Assembly (NCBI GenBank): GCA_021740175.1
Contig: JAIPAH010000022.1
Location: 1 to 33,432 of the forward strand
DNA from: Bacteroidales bacterium
Lineage (GTDB): Bacteria; Bacteroidota; Bacteroidia; Bacteroidales; JAIPAH01
Direction: 5' to 3'
Length of the DNA stretch: 33,432 bases
Both the position numbers and the translations under genes were made by a program. Shown here piece by piece: positions 1,180-30,800 of the stretch (its first letter is position 1; each line of letters starts with the position of its first letter). The notes under the pieces are model-generated. The model was not told the DNA's origin and ran no database searches. It saw nothing but the letters and a program-made list of their open reading frames with translations.

Positions 1180-1195
1180 CGAAACCCGAAACATT

Positions 1196-1234
1196 ATCAG
1201 TGCAAATCAGTCATATCAGTGTCATCAGTGTGCA
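1196..1234. repeat. Half copy of the ATCAGTGTCATCAGTG palindromic repeat
   Basis: The stretch from ATCAGTGCAAATCAG to ATCAGTGTCATCAGTG matches the right half of the palindromic family found at 11.7-14.7 kb. It lies more than 10 kb from the other copies and is not beside a gene end. Confidence 0.6.
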
Positions 1235-4984: not shown

Positions 4985-6175
4985 ATGTATAAAGATTTAG
5001 TTAAATTTATCAGGGAGTTGTATAATGAGCCGGAAGCTTTTATCCCTCTCCACGCTCCCGTCTTTCAGGGCAATGAAAAGGAATATCTTAACAACTGCAT
5101 TGACTCCACCTTCGTTTCCAGCGTAGGAAAATACGTGGATAAGTTTGAAGAGATGGTTGCCGAATACACCGGTGCAAAAAAAGCCATCGTTACCGTAAAC
5201 GGAACAAACGCTTTACACCTAGCTCTGCTCGTTGCAGGCGTAAAACCCGGCCATGAAGTCATTACCCAACCGCTAACCTTTATTGCTACTGCCAACGCCA
5301 TAGCCTACACCAGAGCAAAACCCGTTTTCATAGACGTCGACAATGACACCATGGGTCTCTCACCAAAAGCCCTCAAAGAGTGGCTGGAAAAAAATGTTAA
5401 GCTTGAAACAAAGAACACAGAACAAGGAACACAGAGCAAATCACCAATTAACCAATTAACTAATAAACCTGTTTCCGCTTGCATCCCCATGCACACCTTC
5501 GGTCACCCATGCCGTATTGATGAAATCGTTGAGATTTGCAATGAATACAATATACCTATAGTAGAAGATGCTGCTGAAAGCTTAGGAAGCACCTTTAAGG
5601 GGAAACACACCGGAACATTTGGCAAGCTCGGCATTTTAAGCTTTAACGGCAACAAAACACTAACCACCGGCGGTGGCGGAATGATTTTAACCAATGATGA
5701 AGAACTCGGAATCCATATCAAGCATTTAACCACCCAGGCAAAAGTGCCCCACCCCTGGGAATACATGCACGACCATGTGGGCTACAACTACCGCATGCCC
5801 AACATTAATGCAGCGCTCGGCGTAGCCCAAATGGAGCGAATTGAAGAAATAATCAAAAACAAGCGCCAAACAGCACAGCACTATAAAGAGTATTTAAATT
5901 CCATTCAAACATTCAGTCATTCAAACATTCAGTTTTTCACCGAACCAGGAAACGCTCGCTCAAACTATTGGCTTAACGCTGTTTTATTAAACGACAAGGA
6001 GCAGCGCAATGAATTCTTAAAATATACCAACGAAAAAGGTATCATGACGCGTCCAATATGGCGGTTGATGAATAAGTTGGAAATGTTTAAGAATGCTCAA
6101 ACCGGGAATTTGGATAATGCGGAATGGTTGGAAGATAGAGTGGTTAATTTACCAAGTAGTCTTCGAATAAAATAA
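4985..6175 (+). CDS. DegT/DnrJ/EryC1 aminotransferase, LegC-like, with two in-frame repeat insertions
   Basis: A PLP-dependent sugar aminotransferase of 396 residues. NGTNALHLAL (72-81) binds the cofactor phosphate, the VEDAAES stretch (193-199) positions the ring, and Lys224 in SFNGNKTLTTGGGG forms the internal aldimine. The start (IPLHAPVFQGNEKEYLN-x-CIDSTFVSSVGKYVD) resembles the LegC/PglE-like group that aminates 4-keto sugars for bacillosamine or legionaminic acid pathways. Residues 141-162 (bases 5405-5470) and about 304-316 (5898-5935) are low-complexity and match spacer repeats (GAACACAGAACAA, CAATTAACTAAT, CATTCAAACATTCAG). The first lies before the HTFGHP strand, where relatives have a short hairpin. 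The frame stays open, so the protein may still fold. Confidence 0.87.
   Translation: MYKDLVKFIRELYNEPEAFIPLHAPVFQGNEKEYLNNCIDSTFVSSVGKYVDKFEEMVAEYTGAKKAIVTVNGTNALHLALLVAGVKPGHEVITQPLTFIATANAIAYTRAKPVFIDVDNDTMGLSPKALKEWLEKNVKLETKNTEQGTQSKSPINQLTNKPVSACIPMHTFGHPCRIDEIVEICNEYNIPIVEDAAESLGSTFKGKHTGTFGKLGILSFNGNKTLTTGGGGMILTNDEELGIHIKHLTTQAKVPHPWEYMHDHVGYNYRMPNINAALGVAQMERIEEIIKNKRQTAQHYKEYLNSIQTFSHSNIQFFTEPGNARSNYWLNAVLLNDKEQRNEFLKYTNEKGIMTRPIWRLMNKLEMFKNAQTGNLDNAEWLEDRVVNLPSSLRIK
5405..5470 (+). repeat. Repeat-derived in-frame insertion 1 in the aminotransferase gene
   Basis: This 66-base stretch (22 codons) is built from GAAACAAAGAACACAGAACA, GGAACACAGAGC and CAATTAACCAATTAACTAAT words. The same words occur in non-coding DNA at 2871-2885 (CGAACACAGAACAAA) and around 1740-1775 (AATTAACTAAT). 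It encodes a Gln/Asn/Thr-rich linker absent from typical relatives. Confidence 0.6.
5898..5935 (+). repeat. Repeat-derived in-frame insertion 2 in the aminotransferase gene
   Basis: Three CATTCA(A/G) words in a row (ATTCAAACATTCAGTC, then ATTCAAACATTCAG) match the right arms of the inverted units at 1498-1530 and 1600-1650. They encode SIQTFSHSNIQF in the variable C-terminal region. Confidence 0.55.
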
Positions 6176-9531: not shown

Positions 9532-10689
9532 ATGAAAATTTTGTTTTTTATAAAAGTAAAAGAAGATTTCACTTTCTTAAGGTCTGATTTTAATTTGCTA
9601 GCTCGGAATCTAATTGAAGAAGGCAACAATGTATATGCATATGATGTGAAAAAGTTATCATTTTTTGATTTAAATAGAAAGGAAAAAACGAGAATTTTCA
9701 AGTTCTCTTTTTTCGAAAGGGCAAATCTTCTAAGAATAATCGCACAGTATTTTGCATTATTAAAATTATTAATGTCAATTCAGAAGGACGAATATGATTT
9801 TTTTCAATTTAATTATATTAGACATGAATATTTACTTTTACCAAAACGATACTTAAAAAAGGCAAAATACTCAATAGCACGTGTTTATGGGAGCGATATC
9901 AATAGGCGTGATTTTATAAAGAATAATTTCAGGAAGTTTTATAAAGAGGTTAATATAATACATTTTAGTTATAATAAATTAATTAAGACATTTGAAAAGT
10001 ATCATAGCAAATCTTGCAGGAACAAATATTATGTTCTACCACCACCAAATCTTAACTTGGCATATATAATAGAAAATAAGTACTCTAGAGATGAGGCAAA
10101 AAATATTATTGGTGTAGATATAAATACAGTAGTAATTCATTGTGGTACTAATTCGTCATCTATTGAACAACATTATAAGATTCTTGAAGCTATTAAAGAT
10201 ATTATAGACCATGTCAATGTTAAAATAAAGTATGTTTTTCATTTAAGTCACAGGAACAATAGTAATATTAAATATATTAGCAATTTCCGAAAAAAACTTG
10301 AAAATGTTATTAATAAGGATGAATTAATTATTATTGATCAATATCTCGAAATTGATAAATTAAATCTAATCAGATATGCCACTGATATATTTATTAATAT
10401 AAGAGAATATGACCAAATGGTTGGCTCTATGCTTGAGTATTTCGCGACTGGAGCGCAAGTATTAACAGGCCATTGGTTAAATTACAACAAATTTATAGAG
10501 ATGAACGGTTTTTATGTTAATTACATAAATAATGAAAATGAGTTAAGAGATAAACTTATTGAATTGATAAATAAGAATTCTTTTCAAATTTCGAAGAATG
10601 AGAGAATAATCAGAGAAGTTTTTAACATAAATAGTATTTTAAAACGTAACAAAGAACTTTTCTACAATATGTATAAGACAAATGAATGA
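9532..10689 (+). CDS. GT-B type glycosyltransferase
   Basis: A 385-residue cytosolic protein with an N-terminal MKILFFIKVK strand and an alternating strand-helix pattern typical of GT-B glycosyltransferases. A putative C-terminal donor domain starts near residue 195 (TVVIHCGTNSSSIEQHYKIL). MVGSMLEYFATGAQVLTG near 300-320 resembles the E-containing nucleotide-sugar motif of GT4-like enzymes. No closer family is recognised, and donor and acceptor are unknown. Its stop overlaps the capE start by 8 bases, indicating translational coupling. Composition is strongly AT-rich, unlike capE. Confidence 0.7.
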   Translation: MKILFFIKVKEDFTFLRSDFNLLARNLIEEGNNVYAYDVKKLSFFDLNRKEKTRIFKFSFFERANLLRIIAQYFALLKLLMSIQKDEYDFFQFNYIRHEYLLLPKRYLKKAKYSIARVYGSDINRRDFIKNNFRKFYKEVNIIHFSYNKLIKTFEKYHSKSCRNKYYVLPPPNLNLAYIIENKYSRDEAKNIIGVDINTVVIHCGTNSSSIEQHYKILEAIKDIIDHVNVKIKYVFHLSHRNNSNIKYISNFRKKLENVINKDELIIIDQYLEIDKLNLIRYATDIFINIREYDQMVGSMLEYFATGAQVLTGHWLNYNKFIEMNGFYVNYINNENELRDKLIELINKNSFQISKNERIIREVFNINSILKRNKELFYNMYKTNE

Positions 10690-11686
10690 TATTTTACTTA
10701 TAACCGGCGGTACTGGTTCCTTCGGAAATGCTGTACTAAATCGTTTTCTAAATACGGATGAATTTTCCGAAATCCGCATTTTCAGCCGTGATGAAAAAAA
10801 GCAGGATGACCTGCGTAAGAAAGTCAACAACTCTAAGGTGAAGCTTTACCTGGGCGATGTGCGGGATAAACGTTCTGTGGATACCGTAATGACGGGCGTA
10901 GATTATGTGTTTCATGCTGCGGCATTAAAACAAGTTCCTTCGTGTGAGTTTTTTCCCATGCAGGCAGTACGTACCAATGTATTGGGAACGGAGAATGTAC
11001 TGGATTCAGCCTTACAGCATGGGGTTAAACGTATGGTGACCTTAAGTACGGATAAAGCTGTTTATCCTATTAATGCTATGGGAACTTCCAAAGCCATGAT
11101 GGAAAAAGTGATGATTGCCAAAAGTCGCAATTCAAATGGTACGCTAATGTGTGGGACGCGTTATGGCAATGTAATGGCTTCACGGGGTTCAGTAATACCG
11201 CTTTTTATTAAGCAAATCAAAGAAGGGAAGCCCATTACTATCACCGACCCGGATATGACGCGGTTCATGATGACGCTGGAGAACGCGGTGGAGCTGGTTT
11301 GGTATGCATTCAACAATGCGAACCCGGGGGATATGTTTGTCCAAAAAGCTCCGGCAGCAACCATTGATACGTTGGCCAAGGCATTAAAAGAATTGTATAA
11401 GGCTGATAATGAAATCAGATATATTGGCACACGCCACGGGGAAAAACTCTATGAATCACTGATTAACCGGGAGGATATGATGAAGGCAGAGGATTTGGGG
11501 GATTACTACCGCATCCCTGCTGACAACCGCGACCTGAATTACGATAAATACTTTTCCAAAGGCGAAGGCAAAATCTCCCTCACGGATGAGTACACATCGC
11601 ATAATACACACCGCATGGATGTGGAAGAGACGAAGGAGTTGCTTTTGAAACTAGACATGATCAAAAAAGATGTAGAACACAGATGA
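10682..11686 (+). CDS. capE: UDP-GlcNAc 4,6-dehydratase/5-epimerase (CapE/FnlA)
   Basis: A 334-residue SDR. GGTGSFG at 9-15 binds NADP. STDKA (122-126) and NAMGTSK give an M-x-x-x-K catalytic pair (Met133, Lys137) in place of Tyr, the hallmark of CapE/FnlA-type inverting dehydratases. It converts UDP-GlcNAc to the L-arabino 4-keto-6-deoxy sugar, the first step to UDP-L-FucNAc, followed by CapF and CapG encoded downstream. The final codons and the TGA stop lie within a copy of the palindromic repeat (bases 11674-11755), so the C-terminal EHR and the stop are repeat-derived. Confidence 0.92.
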   Translation: MNDILLITGGTGSFGNAVLNRFLNTDEFSEIRIFSRDEKKQDDLRKKVNNSKVKLYLGDVRDKRSVDTVMTGVDYVFHAAALKQVPSCEFFPMQAVRTNVLGTENVLDSALQHGVKRMVTLSTDKAVYPINAMGTSKAMMEKVMIAKSRNSNGTLMCGTRYGNVMASRGSVIPLFIKQIKEGKPITITDPDMTRFMMTLENAVELVWYAFNNANPGDMFVQKAPAATIDTLAKALKELYKADNEIRYIGTRHGEKLYESLINREDMMKAEDLGDYYRIPADNRDLNYDKYFSKGEGKISLTDEYTSHNTHRMDVEETKELLLKLDMIKKDVEHR

Positions 11687-11755
11687 CACTGATTATACGG
11701 ATAATCACAGATTTTTATCAGTGCAAATCTGTTGCATCAGTGTCATCAGTGGTCA
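11674..11755. repeat. Palindromic ATCAGTGTC repeat, copy E1
   Basis: Outer arms AACACAGATGACACTGAT and ATCAGTGTCATCAGTG are nearly reverse complements. Inner words include TACGGATAATCACAGAT and ATCAGTGCAAATCTGTTG. Together they give a long imperfect hairpin. It covers the capE stop codon and fills the spacer up to the next gene. No T-run follows, so it is not an obvious terminator. Confidence 0.8.
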
Positions 11756-11765
11756 ATCTTAAATT

Positions 11766-12203
11766 ATGAAAGTACAAGTTATAAAAGGCGGAAACCACAC
11801 AGACGATCGTGGAACCCTCAGGTTCGTAAATGATTTCGACCTAAAAAACGTCCGCCGTTTCTACACCATCCAGCACCCGGATACTTCTGTCGTCCGAGCC
11901 TGGCAAGGCCACGAAATAGAAACCAAATGGTTTTTTTCGTTGAAAGGGAGCGTTGTGGTCGCCTGGGTTGAAATCGATGATTTCGATAACCCATCAGATA
12001 AACTAAAAGCCGAATACAAAATACTTAAAGCCGAAGAACCCACGGTAGTATATCTTCCTCCCGGCTACGCCAATGGATTAAAAGCCTTAGAACCCAATTC
12101 AGAAATAGCCGTATTCTCTGACCTGGACGTCAAGGAATCCGTAAAAGAAAAAAGAAGATACCCAGCGGAGTGGTGGTTTGATTGGGGGGAATTTGAAGAA
12201 TAG
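11766..12203 (+). CDS. RmlC/WxcM-like cupin sugar isomerase or epimerase
   Basis: A 145-residue single-domain cupin. The start (GGNHTDDRGTLRFVNDFD) resembles the D-x-RG segment of RmlC-type 3,5-epimerases and FdtA/WxcM 3,4-ketoisomerases. HEIETKWFFSLKGSVVVAWVEID forms the metal-strand region, and VYLPPGYANGLKAL the second cupin motif. It probably rearranges a 4-keto-6-deoxy sugar nucleotide. It lies between capE and capF, where UDP-FucNAc operons normally have no such gene, so it may act on CapE product or belong to another branch. The stop codon TAG abuts the next palindromic repeat copy. Confidence 0.7.
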   Translation: MKVQVIKGGNHTDDRGTLRFVNDFDLKNVRRFYTIQHPDTSVVRAWQGHEIETKWFFSLKGSVVVAWVEIDDFDNPSDKLKAEYKILKAEEPTVVYLPPGYANGLKALEPNSEIAVFSDLDVKESVKEKRRYPAEWWFDWGEFEE

Positions 12204-12270
12204 AACACAGATGACGCTGATTTAACTGATGACCACAGATATTAGTGTAAATCTGTAATATCAGTGTTCA
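12203..12270. repeat. Palindromic ATCAGTGTC repeat, copy E2
   Basis: It begins at the cupin gene stop (TAGAACACAGATGACGCTGAT) and ends ATATCAGTGTTCA just before the GxxExxY start. It is a shorter variant lacking the inner right-arm CATCAGTG word. With copy E3 it brackets the GxxExxY gene. Confidence 0.75.
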
Positions 12271-12278
12271 AAATTATT

Positions 12279-12683
12279 ATGGTTTACCTACATCAGGATA
12301 TAACGCAGAAGATCATTAAAGCCTTTTATAAGGTTTATAATACGCTTGGTTATGGATTCCTTGAAAGAGTCTATCAAAAAGCCATATTAGTTGAATTGAG
12401 GAGAGCAGGTCTACATTGTCAGGAAGAAGCACCGGTTGAAGTGCACTATGAAAGACATAATGTAGGCGATTACCGAGCAGATATCATCGTTGAGAATTGT
12501 GTTATTGTGGAAAATAAAGCAAGCGAAGCTCTTTGCGAAGAAAATGAATTTCAGCTAATAAACTATCTAAAAGCGACAAATATTGAAGTAGGTTTACTAC
12601 TGAACTTTGGTAAAAAGCCAGAGTTTAGAAGAAAAATATTTACTAACGATAGAAAGAAGATGAACACAGATGACGCAGATTAA
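12279..12683 (+). CDS. GxxExxY protein
   Basis: A 134-residue protein from this ATG. The signature G-F-L-E-R-V-Y near residues 24-30 follows HQDITQKIIKAFYKVYNTLGY. After it come DYRADIIVENCVIVENKA and the C-terminal NYLKATNIEVGLLLNFG, both family hallmarks with an acidic-Lys core reminiscent of PD-(D/E)XK nucleases (D...E-x-K). Function is unknown. An earlier GTG at 12264 lies in the repeat and is less likely. The last codons (NTDDAD) and the stop come from repeat copy E3. The gene has no evident role in the glycan pathway, and repeats flank it on both sides like a cassette. Confidence 0.87.
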   Translation: MVYLHQDITQKIIKAFYKVYNTLGYGFLERVYQKAILVELRRAGLHCQEEAPVEVHYERHNVGDYRADIIVENCVIVENKASEALCEENEFQLINYLKATNIEVGLLLNFGKKPEFRRKIFTNDRKKMNTDDAD

Positions 12684-12742
12684 ACGGATTAACACTGATA
12701 ATTATCAGTGAAAATCAGTAGCATCAGTGTCATCAGTGTTCT
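12662..12742. repeat. Palindromic ATCAGTGTC repeat, copy E3
   Basis: GAACACAGATGACGCAGATT, then ACGGATTAACACTGATAATT, then ATCAGTGAAAATCAGTAGC, then ATCAGTGTCATCAGTGTTC. It contains the stop codon of the GxxExxY gene and ends 35 bases before capF. Confidence 0.8.
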
Positions 12743-12776: not shown

Positions 12777-13952
12777 ATGAAAATCGGAATAACAGGTCAA
12801 TCAGGATTTGTCGGTACACACTTATACAACTATCTGGGCCTCCAGGAAAACGTCGAACGCATTCCATTTGAAGATGATTATTTCAAAGATGCTGAAAAGC
12901 TTGAAAACTGGGTACAACAATGTGATGCCATCGTCCACCTGGCCGCCATGAATCGCCACGGTGATCCGCAAGTGATTTACGACACAAACATCAAACTCGT
13001 AAAGCAACTTATTCAAGCCTGCGAGCAAACCAATTCCACACCTCATATTCATTTCTCATCCTCAACCCAGGAAGAAAGAGGCAACCCATATGGCAACTCC
13101 AAGAAGGAAGGGCGTATGTTGCTCGAGCAATGGGCAGAAAAAAACAATGCTCAATTTACAGGCTTTGTCATCCCCAACGTCTTCGGACCGTTTGGCAACC
13201 CTTATTACAACTCCTTCATCGCTACTTTCTGCCACCAACTAACCCATGGCGAACAGCCAATGATCGACGTAGATGGAACAGTAAAACTAATCTATGTAGG
13301 TGAGCTTGTGCATGAGTTCTGGAGTGAAATAAATAGAACACTGATAACACAGATGGAACAGATGAACACAGATGAAAAAATCAGTGAAAATCAGTCTAAT
13401 CAGTGTCATCTGTGTTCCATTAAACCAACCAAAGAAATCAAAGTATCAAAAGTTCTAAGCTTACTAGAGAGCTACAAAGCCAACTACTTCGATAAAGGCA
13501 TCATCCCCGATTTATCAAATGAATTTGAAAGGAACCTGTTCAATACCTTTCTCTGCTACATAGACCACAAAGAATTCTTCCCCTTCCATCTCAAACTAAA
13601 CACCGACGATAGAGGAAGCTTCGTTGAAACAGTAAAACTCAATAGCGGAGGCCAGATTTCATTTTCAACCACAGTACCGGGAATTGCCAGAGGAAACCAC
13701 TACCACACTAGAAAAGCCGAACGCTTCGCCGTCATCAAAGGCAAAGCCAGAATCCAGCTCCGCAAAATCGGAACCGATGAAGTGCTGAATATTGAATTGG
13801 ATGGAGAAAAACCATCCTTTGTTGATATGCCCATCTGGTACACCCACAACATCACCAATATCGGCGATGAAACCTTATATACCATCTTTTGGATCAGTGA
13901 GTTTTTTGATCCTGAAGATCCAGATACATATTTTGAAAAAGTTGAAAAATAG
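12777..13952 (+). CDS. capF: CapF-type bifunctional reductase/cupin for UDP-L-FucNAc synthesis, with repeat insertion
   Basis: A 391-residue protein. The N-terminal SDR has GQSGFVG (7-13) and Y-x-x-x-K at Tyr105/Lys109. The C-terminal cupin (about 280-391) has DDRGSFVE, GNHYHTRK (metal-binding His pair) and YTHNITN. This is the CapF/FnlB layout: reduction of the 4-keto sugar made by CapE to the 6-deoxy-L-talo product, used by CapG. Residues 187-214 (bases 13335-13418) are an in-frame copy of the palindromic repeat at the hinge between the domains. Relatives pass straight from the SDR end to the KPTKEIKVSKVLSLLE-type linker. The frame is open, so a functional enzyme with a 28-residue surface linker is likely. 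Another repeat copy starts at the stop codon. Confidence 0.9.
   Translation: MKIGITGQSGFVGTHLYNYLGLQENVERIPFEDDYFKDAEKLENWVQQCDAIVHLAAMNRHGDPQVIYDTNIKLVKQLIQACEQTNSTPHIHFSSSTQEERGNPYGNSKKEGRMLLEQWAEKNNAQFTGFVIPNVFGPFGNPYYNSFIATFCHQLTHGEQPMIDVDGTVKLIYVGELVHEFWSEINRTLITQMEQMNTDEKISENQSNQCHLCSIKPTKEIKVSKVLSLLESYKANYFDKGIIPDLSNEFERNLFNTFLCYIDHKEFFPFHLKLNTDDRGSFVETVKLNSGGQISFSTTVPGIARGNHYHTRKAERFAVIKGKARIQLRKIGTDEVLNIELDGEKPSFVDMPIWYTHNITNIGDETLYTIFWISEFFDPEDPDTYFEKVEK
13335..13418 (+). repeat. Palindromic ATCAGTGTC repeat inserted in frame in capF, copy E4
   Basis: 84 bases (28 codons) from AGAACACTGATAACACAGAT to ATCAGTGTCATCTGTGTTCC, with reverse-complementary ends. In frame it encodes RTLITQ, an acidic stretch, then ISEN and QCHLCS. 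The untranslated copy after capF (13951-14031) has nearly the same open frame (RTLITQ, then NISEN, then QCYLCS), so the family carries a stop-free reading frame. Confidence 0.85.
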
Positions 13953-14031
13953 AACACTGATTACACAGATTAGACGGATGCTCACAGATAATATCAGTGA
14001 AAATCCGTTGCATCAGTGTTATCTGTGTTCC
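13951..14031. repeat. Palindromic ATCAGTGTC repeat, copy E5
   Basis: 81 bases, a multiple of three. It abuts the capF stop (TAGAACACTGATTACACAG) and ends ATCAGTGTTATCTGTGTTCC, 14 bases before the capG ATG. It is the nearest relative of the in-capF copy. Confidence 0.8.
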
Positions 14032-14045
14032 ATAAACATATACAG

Positions 14046-15266
14046 ATGAAGAAACTCAAAGTAATGACAATCGTCGGTACGCGCCCGGAGATCATTCGCC
14101 TATCGCGTACCATGGCCCTGCTCGATGAACACACCAACCATGTCATCGTCCACACCGGCCAAAACTACGACTACGAACTCAACGAAATATTTTGGGAGCA
14201 GTTAGAGCTTCGTAAACCCGATCATTTCCTGGATGCTGACCGATCTTCCTTAGGCGGCGCAGTGGGTGACATCATCAAAAAATCTGAAGAAGTATTACAG
14301 CAGGAAAAACCTGATGCATTGCTGGTGCTGGGAGATACTAACTCCTGCCTCTCAGCTTATATGGCCAAACGCATGCACATCCCCATCTTCCACATGGAAG
14401 CTGGCAACCGCAGCTTCGACTTCAACGTCCCCGAAGAAGTCAACCGCCGCATCATCGACCACCTCGCCGACTTCAACCTCGTGTACACCGAACACGCCCG
14501 ACGTCATTTGCTTTCCGAAGGCTTGCAACACCGCCGCATTTATTTAACCGGCTCCCCCATGAAAGAAGTCCTGGACTATTACAAGCCCAAAATCGATAAC
14601 TCTAACATCCTGGAAAAACTTTCAGAAGAGTTACAAGAAAATGATCAGCGAAAATCAGTTAAATCAGCGTCATCAGCGTTCTATTCTTTAAAACCAAAAA
14701 AATACTTCCTCGTATCCGTCCACCGCGAAGAAAACGTAGACAACCAGGAAAACCTCAAAAAGATACTCACAATCCTAAACAACTTAGCCGAAAACTACAA
14801 TCTACCCGTCATCGTCTCAACTCATCCCAGAACCAGAAAACGCATAGAAGCGTTGAAGCAAGGAACAACAAACAACGAACAACAAACAACGAACAAACTA
14901 ATCCATTTCATGAAACCCTTCGGCTTCTTCGACTACATAAAACTCCAGATAGAATCCAAATGCGTTATTTCAGACTCCGGCACTATCAGCGAAGAATCCT
15001 CCATCCTCAGCTTCCCAGCCATTAGTCTCCGCCAGTCCATGGAACGCCCCGAAGCACAAGATGCCGGCACTATTATTCTCACTGGATTTGAGCCGGAATC
15101 AGTTCTTAATTCAATAGATTCAGTAGTTAAAGAATTTAAGCAAAAAAATGTATATCAGCACATCACTCCAGATTATAATAAAACCAACATTTCATGGAGA
15201 GTATTAAAGCTGATACTGGGGAATACTTACTTGAGCAATTTATGGTGGGGAATAAAAATTAATTAA
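14046..15266 (+). CDS. capG: Non-hydrolysing UDP-HexNAc 2-epimerase (CapG/FnlC) with repeat insertions
   Basis: A 406-residue WecB-superfamily epimerase. GTRPEI (11-16), HTGQNYDYELNEIFW, LVLGDTNSCLSA, HMEAGNRSFDFNVPEEVNRR, TGSPM and SDSGTISEES follow in family order. In the CapE-CapF-CapG set it inverts C2 to give UDP-N-acetyl-L-fucosamine. Two stretches look repeat-derived: residues 200-214 (bases 14643-14685), the right half of the palindromic repeat, and residues 271-284 (14856-14899), made of AACAAC/GAACAA words. Both lie in loops between conserved blocks. An upstream GTG at 14016 lies in repeat DNA; the ATG here is preferred. Confidence 0.9.
   Translation: MKKLKVMTIVGTRPEIIRLSRTMALLDEHTNHVIVHTGQNYDYELNEIFWEQLELRKPDHFLDADRSSLGGAVGDIIKKSEEVLQQEKPDALLVLGDTNSCLSAYMAKRMHIPIFHMEAGNRSFDFNVPEEVNRRIIDHLADFNLVYTEHARRHLLSEGLQHRRIYLTGSPMKEVLDYYKPKIDNSNILEKLSEELQENDQRKSVKSASSAFYSLKPKKYFLVSVHREENVDNQENLKKILTILNNLAENYNLPVIVSTHPRTRKRIEALKQGTTNNEQQTTNKLIHFMKPFGFFDYIKLQIESKCVISDSGTISEESSILSFPAISLRQSMERPEAQDAGTIILTGFEPESVLNSIDSVVKEFKQKNVYQHITPDYNKTNISWRVLKLILGNTYLSNLWWGIKIN
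14643..14685 (+). repeat. Half palindromic repeat in frame inside capG, copy E6
   Basis: GATCAGCGAAAATCAGTTAA followed by ATCAGCGTCATCAGCGTTCT matches the right half of copy E3 with T-to-C changes (CAGTG to CAGCG). It encodes DQRKSVKSASSAFYS between the N-terminal domain and the KKYFLVSVHREENVD strand. Confidence 0.75.
14856..14899 (+). repeat. AACAAC-type low-complexity insertion inside capG
   Basis: GGAACAACAAACAACGAAC and ACAACAAACAACGAAC tandem words encode a Thr/Asn/Gln-rich segment. The same words occur in the non-coding spacer at 3945-3965 (AACAAAAAACAACGAAC). Confidence 0.6.
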
Positions 15267-25966: not shown

Positions 25967-26041
25967 GGGAGAAGGTCAGAGGCCAGAAGTCAGAGATCAG
26001 AAGTCAGAGGACAGAGATCAGAAGTCGGAGATCAGAGTTCA
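25966..26041. repeat. CAGAAGTCAGAGATCAG tandem repeat, left of the four-helix-bundle gene
   Basis: A degenerate tandem array of (A/G)GAAGTCAGAG and GATCAGAAGTC words fills the spacer between the deacetylase stop and the next gene. The same words and their reverse complement reappear on the other side of that gene. Confidence 0.75.
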
Positions 26042-26057
26042 GTATTATAATAATTGA

Positions 26058-26447
26058 GTGACTAAGCAAATTAATTCGGCTAAGGAACTTAAAGTCTATA
26101 AAAAATCCTACGAGTTGGCGATGAGGATTTTTGAGATTAGTAAAACCTTTCCGAAAGAAGAGCGATATGCTTTAACAAGTCAGGTCAGAAGATCATCTCG
26201 TTCTGTTTGTTTAAACCTAAGAGAAGCCTGGGAAAAAAGACGATATGAAGCACATTTCATCAGTAAACTGACAGATTGCGACGGTGAAAACAGCGAAACT
26301 AACACAGCATTGGACTTTGCAAAAGATTATGAGTATATCTCTAACGAACTTTATCAAGAATTAGTAAACGAAACCCTTGAAGTAGGCAAGATGCTCGGCT
26401 CCATGATAAAATCGCCGGAATCCTTCATCTTGAAATCTAAGCAATAG
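26058..26447 (+). CDS. Four-helix bundle protein (23S rRNA intervening-sequence family)
   Basis: A 129-residue all-helical protein starting with GTG. AKELKVYKKSYELAMRIFEISKTFPKEERYALTSQVRRSSRSV and NLREAWEKRR are the diagnostic first half; EVGKMLGSMI ends it. The family was first seen in intervening sequences of 23S rRNA genes and is common in Bacteroidota; its function is unknown. It interrupts the glycan operon, has no evident role in it, and is flanked on both sides by the GAAGTCAGAG repeats, like a cassette. Confidence 0.88.
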   Translation: MTKQINSAKELKVYKKSYELAMRIFEISKTFPKEERYALTSQVRRSSRSVCLNLREAWEKRRYEAHFISKLTDCDGENSETNTALDFAKDYEYISNELYQELVNETLEVGKMLGSMIKSPESFILKSKQ

Positions 26448-26520
26448 AGGGCAGAAGTCAGAGGTCAGAAGTCAGAAATCAGCCCTCTGATCTCTGATCT
26501 CTGGTATCCGATCTCTGATC
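26448..26520. repeat. GAAGTCAGAGGTCAG / CTGATCTCTGATCTCTG inverted repeat, right of the four-helix-bundle gene
   Basis: The left arm (GGCAGAAGTCAGAGGTCAG) has the same words as 25966-26041. The right arm (CCTCTGATCTCTGATCTCTG) is their reverse complement, giving a hairpin around AAATCAG. Confidence 0.75.
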
Positions 26521-26577
26521 TATTTATCTTCAATCATCAATTACATAAACAAGCAACTTAAAAAACAACACACAATA

Positions 26578-27819: not shown

Positions 27820-29830
27820 TTGCGCCAAGCTAAGCCCGTGAAAAGGGAATTAGCATAGTTCTTTGAAACTTTTCAGCAGAAACCTGTAGGTAACCAATCC
27901 TACCTGGGAAAGCCTAACCAGCCCCAGAACCGAGTGTTGCGTAGTCAGCAGAGATGCTGGCACGAAGCGTACACAGGGAGTACAAAAGCTGTGTGATAGA
28001 GCCTCGAAAATAAAGATAATGTTTTGGTTTTCATTTTTCTGTCTGTGGGAACGAAAGCATAGTAACCGTCAAGGTAAGGGAACTATGCCTGACCGGGGTC
28101 GAAGAGCAGGGCAAATGTATAGATAGGTTTCTACGGGAACTTGGGAGAGCCTCCCGCCTCCAAACGAAAAGTGGTTGATATGGAATGACCACACCCGAAA
28201 ATTCCAGGTTCGCAGGGTACATGGTACCACCTTGCGAACGCTAAGAAAAAGGTAACATCGGATTGGTATCAAAGTCGAGGGAAACCGAAGACGATGAGAA
28301 GGGCGAAGGCAGTCTTAGCATCCCCATAGTACCGATAGAAATCTGGCAAATCAGTCCCATGAAAGCCAGAGAGTAGGGAAGGGAAAACCGGCCGGTCAGG
28401 CCGGGGATGCCTTAAACCGGGACTACATTTTGGAAACATTAAACGTACCAGAGATGTCTAAGAAAATGTCAACAGAAGAAATGCAGATAGCAGCGCGTGC
28501 AAGGAAACACAAAGGCGAAGCTTTGACCAACCTCCATCAGTTCATCGATGAGGGGATACTGCAACGGAGCTATCACAGCCTGAACAAACAAAGCAGTGCA
28601 GGGGTGGACGGCCATAGCTGGCAGAGCTATGGACAGGTGCAAGCCGACCGTTTACCGGAACTGCTGAGCAAGTTCAAGGCAGGTAGTTACAAAGCCCCGC
28701 CGGTGCGGCGGACATATATACCCAAAGGCAGGGATGGGCAACGCCCGCTGGGCATACCGACCATCGAAGACAAGATATTGCAGGAAGGTGTCCGTAGGAC
28801 ACTAACCCCAATATACGAAGAAGACTTTAAGGACTTCTCATTTGGCTTCAGAAAAGGTCGTTCAGCCCATCAGGCCATCAGGTATATGTTTACAGAAGTC
28901 AGTTTTAGAAAGAAGCACTATATCATAGATGCAGATATCAAAGACTACTTTGGCAGTATCAACCACAGTCAACTTCGTGCCTTTCTTGACCGCCGGGTGA
29001 AAGATGGTGTGATACGCAAGATGATAGATAAATGGCTCAAGGCCGGGATACTGGAAGATAAACAATTACATTATCCAACAGAAGGCACGCCTCAAGGCGG
29101 GCTTATTTCCCCGCTGCTGAGCAACATTTATCTGCATTATGTATTAGATGAGTGGTTTTCAGAACAAATCCAGCCATTATTGAAAGGAGAGAGTTTTATT
29201 GTGCGCTATGCCGATGATTTTATATTGGGATTTACCGATGGGAAAGACGCCCAAAGGGTGATGGAGGTGCTACCCAAACGGTTCGGGAAATACGGACTGG
29301 AGTTGCACCCGGATAAGACCCGATTAATCAAACTGGGCGATAAACCCAAAGGTGGCCCGCGGGGATTTGACTTTCTTGGCTTCACACATTTTCTGGGCAA
29401 AAGCCGCAAAGGAAAATGGGTATTGAAAAGAAAGACAAGCCGCAAAAAGTTCACCCAAGCGTTGAACAACATGCGGGGGTGGATATCCCAACATCGGCAT
29501 ACGCCACTCATAGAGCTCATTCCGGCGATAAATGCCAAATTACGGGGGCACTACAATTATTATGGAGTCACCTTTAATAGTCGGATGCTACAGAAATTTC
29601 ACCATGAAGTGTCTCGCATCCTGCACAAATGGATTAATCGCCGGGGAGGAAAGACTGTTTGGAACTGGCAACGGTTTTCCAAACTGATACACCAATGGCA
29701 GCCTTTGCTCAAACCCAAAATCTATCACAGCTATCGTTCAGCGAAATCGGTTTAAGAGGAACCGGATGCGGGAAAACCGCTCGTCCGGGTCTGTGGGGGA
29801 GCAGGATGGCAACGACCTGCTCTACCCGGA
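27820..29830 (+). mobile_element. Group II intron with its own maturase gene
   Basis: The 3' end is clear. Domain V follows the RT stop codon directly (GAACCGGATGCGG, GAAA loop, CCGCTCGTCCGGGTC; about 29758-29792). Domain VI is a GAGCAGG/CCTGCTC stem (about 29799-29822), ending near CTACCCGGAC. The 5' end is inferred near TTGCGCC at 27820, close to the usual GTGCG, followed by the GCTAAGCCC/GGGAATTAGC stem. The 600-base structured leader has no gene. Exact ends are uncertain by several bases. It lies downstream of a terminator, a common location for class C-like introns. Confidence 0.8.
28430..29755 (+). CDS. ltrA: Group II intron reverse transcriptase/maturase
   Basis: A 441-residue intron-encoded protein. 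Reverse transcriptase blocks run from YIPKGRDGQRPLGIPTIEDK through QGGLISPLLSNIYLH to the active-site YADD at 260-263, then LGFT. The maturase X domain (RGHYNYYGVTFNSRML) follows, and the protein ends soon after at RSAKSV. There is no HNH endonuclease domain, so mobility would rely on single-stranded or structured targets. The start is TTG; an ATG at 28454 is an alternative. The frame is intact, so the intron may be active. Confidence 0.93.
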   Translation: METLNVPEMSKKMSTEEMQIAARARKHKGEALTNLHQFIDEGILQRSYHSLNKQSSAGVDGHSWQSYGQVQADRLPELLSKFKAGSYKAPPVRRTYIPKGRDGQRPLGIPTIEDKILQEGVRRTLTPIYEEDFKDFSFGFRKGRSAHQAIRYMFTEVSFRKKHYIIDADIKDYFGSINHSQLRAFLDRRVKDGVIRKMIDKWLKAGILEDKQLHYPTEGTPQGGLISPLLSNIYLHYVLDEWFSEQIQPLLKGESFIVRYADDFILGFTDGKDAQRVMEVLPKRFGKYGLELHPDKTRLIKLGDKPKGGPRGFDFLGFTHFLGKSRKGKWVLKRKTSRKKFTQALNNMRGWISQHRHTPLIELIPAINAKLRGHYNYYGVTFNSRMLQKFHHEVSRILHKWINRRGGKTVWNWQRFSKLIHQWQPLLKPKIYHSYRSAKSV

Positions 29831-30800
29831 CTCACCAGCATGCGCCGAACAGAGTCCCCGCCGTATCTTTAATGTCCATCGCAGCCGCAAGTTGCGTTCA
29901 GGCGGAATACCAGGAATATTAGATGGCGCAGGGGCTACCCTGATGGTTTTTGTGCCGCTCCTGACGGAGCTAATATGCCTGGAAATATATTCTCAATGTA
30001 GCTCTGAAGATAGAATTTGAACTATAACAATAAATCCAACCCCAGACGTATTCCCCTTCTCCTTTGAGGAGAAGAGCCTGTCCCGCTTTGCGGGAGGTTA
30101 GGGGATGAGGTGCTACCCGAATGGCTTTTGTACCGCTCCTGCCGGAGCTCATAGGATTGGATGCCGGACATATTTCTACCATACTTTCGCTCCTAACGGA
30201 GCTAATATGCCTGGAAATGTATTCTCAATGTAGCAACGCCAGATATTAGTATCCTTAGCCCCGGGTTTTAACCCGGGGGCATCGGCCAACACACCATCCC
30301 CCGCCGTAAACCAATCTTCAATCGCAGCCGCAAGTTGCGTTCAGGCGGAAAACCCGGATGTTTGTTTCTGCTTGCCCTGTGAAATTTTTTCCCATTTAAC
30401 AGGGCCTGTCTAGGTCTCAGGAATTCTCTAAAACATAAGTCTACGGCGGTAAAAAGAAGAATGCAATCCAACCCCCGGGTTGAAACCCGGGGCTATTCTC
30501 ATTCAGCCCCTTCAGGGCTATTTGCTATTGGCATTTAAATATAGACACAGAAATATTTTTGGAATCCCGCTATAAAAATGGTTTTTGAGTGCTTATAGAT
30601 GACTTAGAAATAGTTAGTTTTTGGAGCTGCAACAACCTCCGATCGCAGGATCTCCGCTCCGCTCCGATTTGGAATTTGGATTTTCCAATTTGGAATTTCA
30701 ACAACAAGCTCCCCGGAACCACCGAACGCTGTCGGCAGCCCCGGGGAGTTGTTTGCCCCGGCTTTTATGGTGAATCCGGGAAAACCGCCGGGAGTGCATA
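29831..30800. repeat. Gene-free field of palindromic and direct repeats
   Basis: No gene is supportable here. Direct repeats: ATCGCAGCCGCAAGTTGCG with flanking words at 29856-29907 and 30299-30350; CTCCT(G/A)ACGGAGCTAATATG with a following GGAAAT-TATTCTCAATGTAGC at 29953-30003 and 30187-30234, with a third partial at 30113-30180. Palindromes: AGCCCCGGGTTTTAACCCGG at 30257-30280, and its inverted relative at 30472-30493; a CCCTGTGAAAT/ATTTAACAGGG hairpin at 30374-30405; CCCTTCTCC/GGAGAAG and CCCGC/GCGGG stems near 30052-30090; and AACAAGCTCCCCGG/CCGGGGAGTTGTT at 30703-30752. Confidence 0.75.

Follow-up and report, generated by a model that had tools for sequence, protein, structure and literature searches.

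The question raised by this locus is how a palindromic repeat that recurs between capsule genes came to lie in frame inside one of them, and whether it is read there as protein. The window, i.e., the whole stretch of 33,432 nucleotides that was analyzed, carries on its forward (+) strand capE, an FnlA-like UDP-GlcNAc 4,6-dehydratase/5-epimerase gene (10682..11686), a cupin gene, a GxxExxY gene (12264..12683; TIGR04256, PF13366, PD-(D/E)XK nuclease superfamily), capF, an SDR + cupin reductase/epimerase gene (12777..13952), and capG/wecB, a UDP-GlcNAc 2-epimerase gene (14046..15266). We take capE, capF, and capG to form the CapE-CapF-CapG route to UDP-L-FucNAc. The closest solved structures are those of S. 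aureus CapF (2zkl, 3st7, and 3vhr), which the window CapF matches along its full length, and S. aureus CapG (7ya2). In CapF the SDR reductase domain is N-terminal and the cupin epimerase domain C-terminal (PMC5393024).

F1 copies in the window

The palindromic repeat, referred to as F1, occupies 84 bp of capF on the + strand (13335..13418, residues 187-214), between the SDR and cupin domains, and in the CapF frame it reads RTLITQMEQMNTDEKISENQSNQCHLCS. From one end to the other it can be aligned with the copies that follow capE, the GxxExxY gene, and capF. Coordinates, frame, and alignment thus bear out the earlier note, which had placed an 84-bp repeat in frame at these residues; its statement that the same repeat occupies four spacers holds for the copies after capE, the GxxExxY gene, and capF, whereas the copy after the cupin gene is shortened. 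Nor are the copies confined to spacers, as the note had it, since each also extends into the 3' end of the preceding gene. The intergenic copy at 11674..11755 (+) gives capE its last codons and stop, the shortened one between the cupin and GxxExxY genes (12202..12272, +) overlaps the cupin stop codon, and the copy at 12661..12742 (+) encodes the final 7 codons and stop of the GxxExxY gene, which has inverted F1 arms on both sides. The copy 3' of capF (13951..14031, +) overlaps the capF stop codon; it is 81 bp long and encodes a similar peptide, as had been claimed. In the TAG stops of both the cupin gene and capF, two bases are repeat sequence. An isolated half palindrome is located at 1190..1231 (+).

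The F1 unit is an imperfect palindrome of ~82 bp with period-9 words, and its copies start with AGAACAC or GGAACAC and finish with GTGTTCC/T. A covariance model built from the five copies in the window (R1) finds these five in the window and nothing else at E < 0.1. Chance is excluded, since a comparison of the hinge insert with the rest of its own locus gives E = 1.7e-18 and shuffled hinges have zero matches to their own loci. In the source genome, a 3.43-Mb bin, full F1 copies occur only in the capsule cassette, and half matches are found on four other contigs. The bin is fragmented (239 contigs, about 80% complete), and one might suspect that the hinge repeat is an artefact of metagenome-bin assembly; similar hinges, however, are present in the cultured isolates Tangfeifania diversioriginum and Perlabentimonas gracilis and in many independent bins, and such an artefact is scarcely conceivable.

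Other repeats and mobile elements were observed elsewhere in the window. The spacer region 290-2870 has many short-word palindromes and tandem words, with several families side by side. A DegT-type aminotransferase gene (4985-6175) contains in-frame word arrays at 5407-5469 and 5902-5933, the former falling in a stretch (about residues 135-158) that is unaligned with the closest solved homologue. A group II intron reverse transcriptase/maturase is encoded at 28430-29755, and a near-identical 47-nt repeat pair lies 3' of it (29956-30234).

Structure and selection of CapF and CapG

The AlphaFold model of CapF has a mean pLDDT of 86.9. According to this model, the native helix continues into the insert (174-197), residues 198-209 are poorly defined (203-206 being under pLDDT 50), and a strand at 210-214 consists mostly of repeat-encoded residues. 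The top fold match of the modelled protein is S. aureus CapF with a high overall rmsd (about 16 A), which is probably due to a different placement of the two domains in the model. Between the window capF and that of Tangfeifania, dN equals 0.07 and 0.11 in the two domains with a saturated dS of about 3, and therefore both domains are under strong purifying selection.

CapG also carries in-frame repeats at two sites, W1 and W2: a half F1 palindrome in the inter-domain linker (W1, 14628..14685, +) and a period-7 word array (AACAACAAACAACG) in a second loop (W2, 14859..14896, +). Both sites have different repeat families in different species. Further small elements, e.g., LSEVEG/LVEV and CPPLAGAGGG, are nested in frame in the CapG loops of loci L198, L149, L151, and L220, and the peptide CPPLAGAGGG appears at both W1 and W2 of L198.

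The hinge across CapF loci

The hinge set comprises the window and 80 further CapF loci (81 hinges), which were matched against 153 kb of pooled intergenic DNA. Matches to intergenic repeats are found for 28/81 hinges vs 2/~648 control windows of the same genes (p about 6e-27, relatedness uncorrected). When BLAST is run within each locus (E ≤ 1e-4), 19/81 hinges have a match outside the hinge, likewise uncorrected for relatedness, and the remaining parts of capF show such a match in 0/81.

Full F1 copies occupy the hinges of L148-L153, L155, and L157, and half copies those of L164, L167, and L220; the repeat is in frame at the hinge in both Saprospiraceae and Bacteroidales loci. A second family, F2 (ACACAGAGT/ACACTGTG words), is present in Tangfeifania (L147), Perlabentimonas (L160), L203, and others, and period-7 words of other families (AATCACC, AGATAAAAGT, and AAATCAG) are found at the hinges of L156, L161, L168, L193, and L183. 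There are probably more period-7 families at the hinge beyond these three. The CapF hinge is a hotspot used by four or more repeat families. The earlier note had overlooked this variety of unrelated families, as well as the repeats in the window's CapG and the likeness to the arms around GxxExxY genes, and its interpretation is too narrow in this respect.

Across loci the hinge alleles are empty, short, or repeat-filled. Native SDR-cupin linkers are short and variable, and filled loci have longer repeat-encoded peptides instead. Following the earlier note, homologues were aligned in search of a gap at 187-214, and the outcome is mixed: there is no clean gap, and the variable native linker is largely replaced by the repeat. 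The CapF loci yielded no exact empty site with a target duplication, and the near-empty pair L155/L170 shows a replaced linker with no clean insertion. The filled hinges compared lack part of the native linker, so they do not amount to evidence of simple transposition.

Coding capacity

In each of the nine F1 hinge copies the capF frame is free of stops and the length is a multiple of 3, compared with 16/50 (open in that frame) and 19/50 (divisible by 3) for intergenic F1 copies. Together with the purifying selection on the flanking domains, these values support the part of the earlier proposal in which the repeat is an in-frame insertion in capF, a gene that looks functional. Judging from the gene sequence, the insert is presumably translated in the cell, and the enzyme activity of CapF would be retained with it.

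The proposal that the family can act as a protein-coding insertion is not supported as a general statement. Among 64 repeat sites in other genomes rich in copies, none is inside a convincing gene, although two coincide partly with short ORFs of doubtful status, and across 393 order-level genomes the full insert peptide occurs within a long ORF only in CapF. A scan of 700 genes around capF confines interior matches to intergenic repeats to CapF and CapG, with several of the CapG matches representing unmasked coding DNA in the pool rather than repeats. On these sequences, the F1 repeat is not a general coding insertion. A frame of 101 aa in genome G253 was considered as a further coding host and rejected, as it is not a recognised gene.

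The insert might instead be cut out of the RNA, in the manner of RNase III-processed 23S rRNA intervening sequences, and hence stay untranslated. Its transcript is able to fold as a long hairpin, and comparable arms occur on the four-helix-bundle (S23-type) genes of rRNA intervening sequences (PMC4990558). Excision, however, would need neither the stop-free frame nor the length divisible by three that are seen in 9/9 hinge copies, and an Rfam search with the repeat gave no match. Moreover, after RNase III excision the RNA usually stays in pieces, a state that rRNA can tolerate and an mRNA cannot. Excision is therefore very improbable, and translation of the insert remains the preferred reading. 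A conserved RNA structure of the in-frame copies was also rejected: 89.7% of cells pair, yet there are zero compensatory changes.

Turnover of the hinge copies

A tree of CapF proteins made without the hinge residues places the window CapF as sister to that of Tangfeifania (88% identical, SH-aLRT 98), whose hinge belongs to F2 and not F1. Other sister pairs with unlike families are L151 (F1)/L156 (F3) and L162 (F2)/L220 (F1). Six hinge states on the tree require 21 changes. In L220, the hinge and the spacer before capF have the same nested small palindrome (92% over 77 bp), and therefore one served as the template for the other or the two share a source.

Could the repeat have entered capF once, long ago, and been passed down with the gene, its DNA conserved for its own sake? 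F1 hinge copies do agree in orientation and frame, and frequently also in the loop GATRAAAAAATC, and their identity to one another (0.782) is slightly higher than that between hinge and intergenic copies of the same locus (0.779) or of other loci (0.744). Since hinge copies from unrelated loci are slightly more alike (0.782 vs 0.744), the F1 distribution may come partly from inheritance or gene transfer, as far as these identities indicate. A single ancient insertion, however, is at odds with the unlike families in sister genes and with the starred branches of the tree, on which, even when all other branches are disregarded, F1 must have changed at least 4 times, F2 at least 3 times, and F3 at least twice. 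The in-frame copies also lack compensatory base-pair changes, and third positions are far more diverged in the flanks (differences of 0.2-0.7) than in the repeat (0-0.36, mostly 0.25 or less). We consider one inherited insertion quite unlikely. For 34/36 F1 pairs, at most 1% of control windows show third-position differences this low, which fits a family that maintains its consensus and supplies or refreshes the hinge copies.

Alternatively, hinge repeats could be recombination junctions at which cassettes or domains are swapped between loci, a copy being kept or refreshed by exchange and not by insertion of an element. Repeats are indeed concentrated in the capE-capF-capG segment, and one Saprospiraceae bin has three capF copies whose dS is unlike between the domains and lowest at the hinge: the values for the N domain, hinge, and C domain are 1.09, about 0, and 0.47 for L149/L150, and 0.96, 0.21, and 2.51 for L148/L149. 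In most CapF proteins tested, however, the N and C domains have matching or nearly matching best relatives, and exchange leaves unexplained how sister genes that otherwise match come to hold unrelated families. This reading is rather unlikely, and repeated filling of the hinge by different families is favored over it. Domain shuffling at the hinge was rejected as a general cause, the best relatives of the two CapF domains mostly coinciding. As for L148, L149, and L150 themselves, their nearly identical hinge amid unequally diverged domains points to possible recombination at the hinge.

Possible origin of the repeats

Inverted arms within 250 bp are found for 35/51 GxxExxY genes and 26/34 four-helix-bundle genes, compared with 10/70 for the wecB control. 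Read by eye, the arm words have a period of about 9 at GxxExxY genes and of 7 at four-helix-bundle genes, and both kinds of words occur in CapF hinges. A GxxExxY or four-helix-bundle gene is located just upstream of capF in 19/26 loci that have a repeat in the hinge vs 10/49 that have none (p = 1.4e-5). Co-occurrence of R1 and GxxExxY in 59 genomes (14/18 vs 15/41, p = 0.005) is real but loose, and no F1 copy lies near the second GxxExxY gene of the source genome. Across the phylum, R1 is detected in 36 of the 198 genomes sampled. A Y1 transposase was rejected as the partner: the 3 kb surrounding the single Y1_Tnp gene of the genome contain no R1 match.

The arms suggest that the palindromes are gene-less, MITE-like derivatives of GxxExxY or four-helix-bundle units, and they would presumably be mobilized by GxxExxY or related machinery. 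More broadly, it is a tentative but realistic possibility that there are two classes of palindromic mobile elements, both widespread and undescribed, one having period-9 arms and GxxExxY (PD-(D/E)XK-type) partner genes and the other period-7 arms and four-helix-bundle (S23-type) partner genes, and that copies of them without the gene have settled time and again in the same protein linkers of the CapF-CapG pathway.

Three further arrangements were observed. At 25976-26521 of the window, a PF05635 four-helix-bundle/23S rRNA IVP gene (26058-26447) lies between inverted period-7 arms (AGAAGTCAGAG / CTCTGATCTCTG); the unit resembles an intervening sequence, yet it is outside rRNA. Contig G056:C137 has at 118-1314 a regular array of R1-like units with a spacing of about 158 bp. 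Genome G439 has about a dozen equal-score R1 copies on many contigs, several of them within 20-30 bases of contig ends, which suggests a recent high-copy element.

Proposed explanation

The F1 palindrome (about 82 bp) would behave like a MITE, i.e., a miniature non-autonomous mobile element, and probably arose through gene loss from a unit composed of left arm, GxxExxY gene, and right arm. One copy would have entered the SDR-cupin linker of CapF, displacing most of the native linker, and since F1 has one often-open frame, the insert could be read as 28 residues. Its end would provide a beta-strand (HLCSI) leading into the next segment, so that CapF would tolerate the insert. The CapF hinge and the two CapG loops would represent permissive sites in the repeat-rich capE-capF-capG cassette, and copies landing elsewhere in capF or capG would be removed by selection; the same site would therefore be refilled by different palindrome families. 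Taken as a whole, this account, in which a MITE-like palindrome filled the CapF linker and is translated, the permissive site being refilled repeatedly by several families, appears probable.

Novelty and significance

In-frame palindromes are known from Rickettsia and from REP families of several genera (PMC10969869, PMC2229807, PMC3733652), mostly as scattered single cases. In the literature, no description of in-frame palindromes in Bacteroidota or in capsule genes was found, which is weak evidence, as the search covered open-licence papers only. Within the literature covered, what looks new is that the hotspot is shared, that several families use one site, that two successive enzymes of one capsule pathway are involved, and that GxxExxY and four-helix-bundle genes are associated with the repeats. 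With dozens of sequenced alleles, the CapF hinge amounts to a replicated natural experiment on the conversion of mobile DNA into protein and on the sites that will take it. The repeats that litter many Bacteroidota genomes also gain candidate partners in genes whose annotation goes no further than GxxExxY or four-helix-bundle protein; if this partnership is true, the hinges would be natural replicates of mobile DNA turning into protein.

Comparison with known systems

REP palindromes lie mostly just 3' of genes and sometimes in frame inside them (PMC3733652), and the RAYT gene, the partner of REP/REPIN sequences, is flanked by the same repeat (PMC3116915). F1 resembles this system in being palindromic, mostly downstream of genes but also in frame inside one, and associated with a candidate partner gene flanked by the repeat. 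It differs, however, in its period-9 words, in having neither a GTAG nor a CGTC tag, and in its associated GxxExxY or four-helix-bundle genes; the Y1 transposase gene, in turn, lacks the repeat, and F1 thus falls outside the REP/REPIN definition.

Intervening sequences of 23S rRNA consist of a small S23 ORF between terminal inverted repeats and are thought to be mobile (PMC4990558). The window unit at 25976-26521 is similar, with an S23/four-helix-bundle ORF between inverted arms. In contrast to intervening sequences, units of this kind sit between capsule genes, and their arms recur without the ORF in coding sequence; the capF insert has no ORF of its own and lies in a protein gene, not in rRNA.

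Bacterial MITEs are small and non-coding, have inverted ends, and are found in spacers as well as in frame in genes (PMC2229807). F1 likewise is short, has terminal inverted repeats, and lacks a transposase of its own; neither a transposase with matching ends nor a target-site duplication was identified for it.

Palindromic elements of Rickettsia are present both between genes and in frame in conserved genes, where the encoded peptide is tolerated (PMC10969869, PMC2229807). The F1 palindrome is alike in being both intergenic and in frame in a conserved gene, and the analogy drawn in the earlier note stands as regards this outcome. It does not extend to the spread over many genes: the Rickettsia elements occupy many unrelated genes of one genus, whereas full F1 copies are nearly confined to one hinge. 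Moreover, that hinge is used by several unrelated families in several phyla, unlike in Rickettsia.
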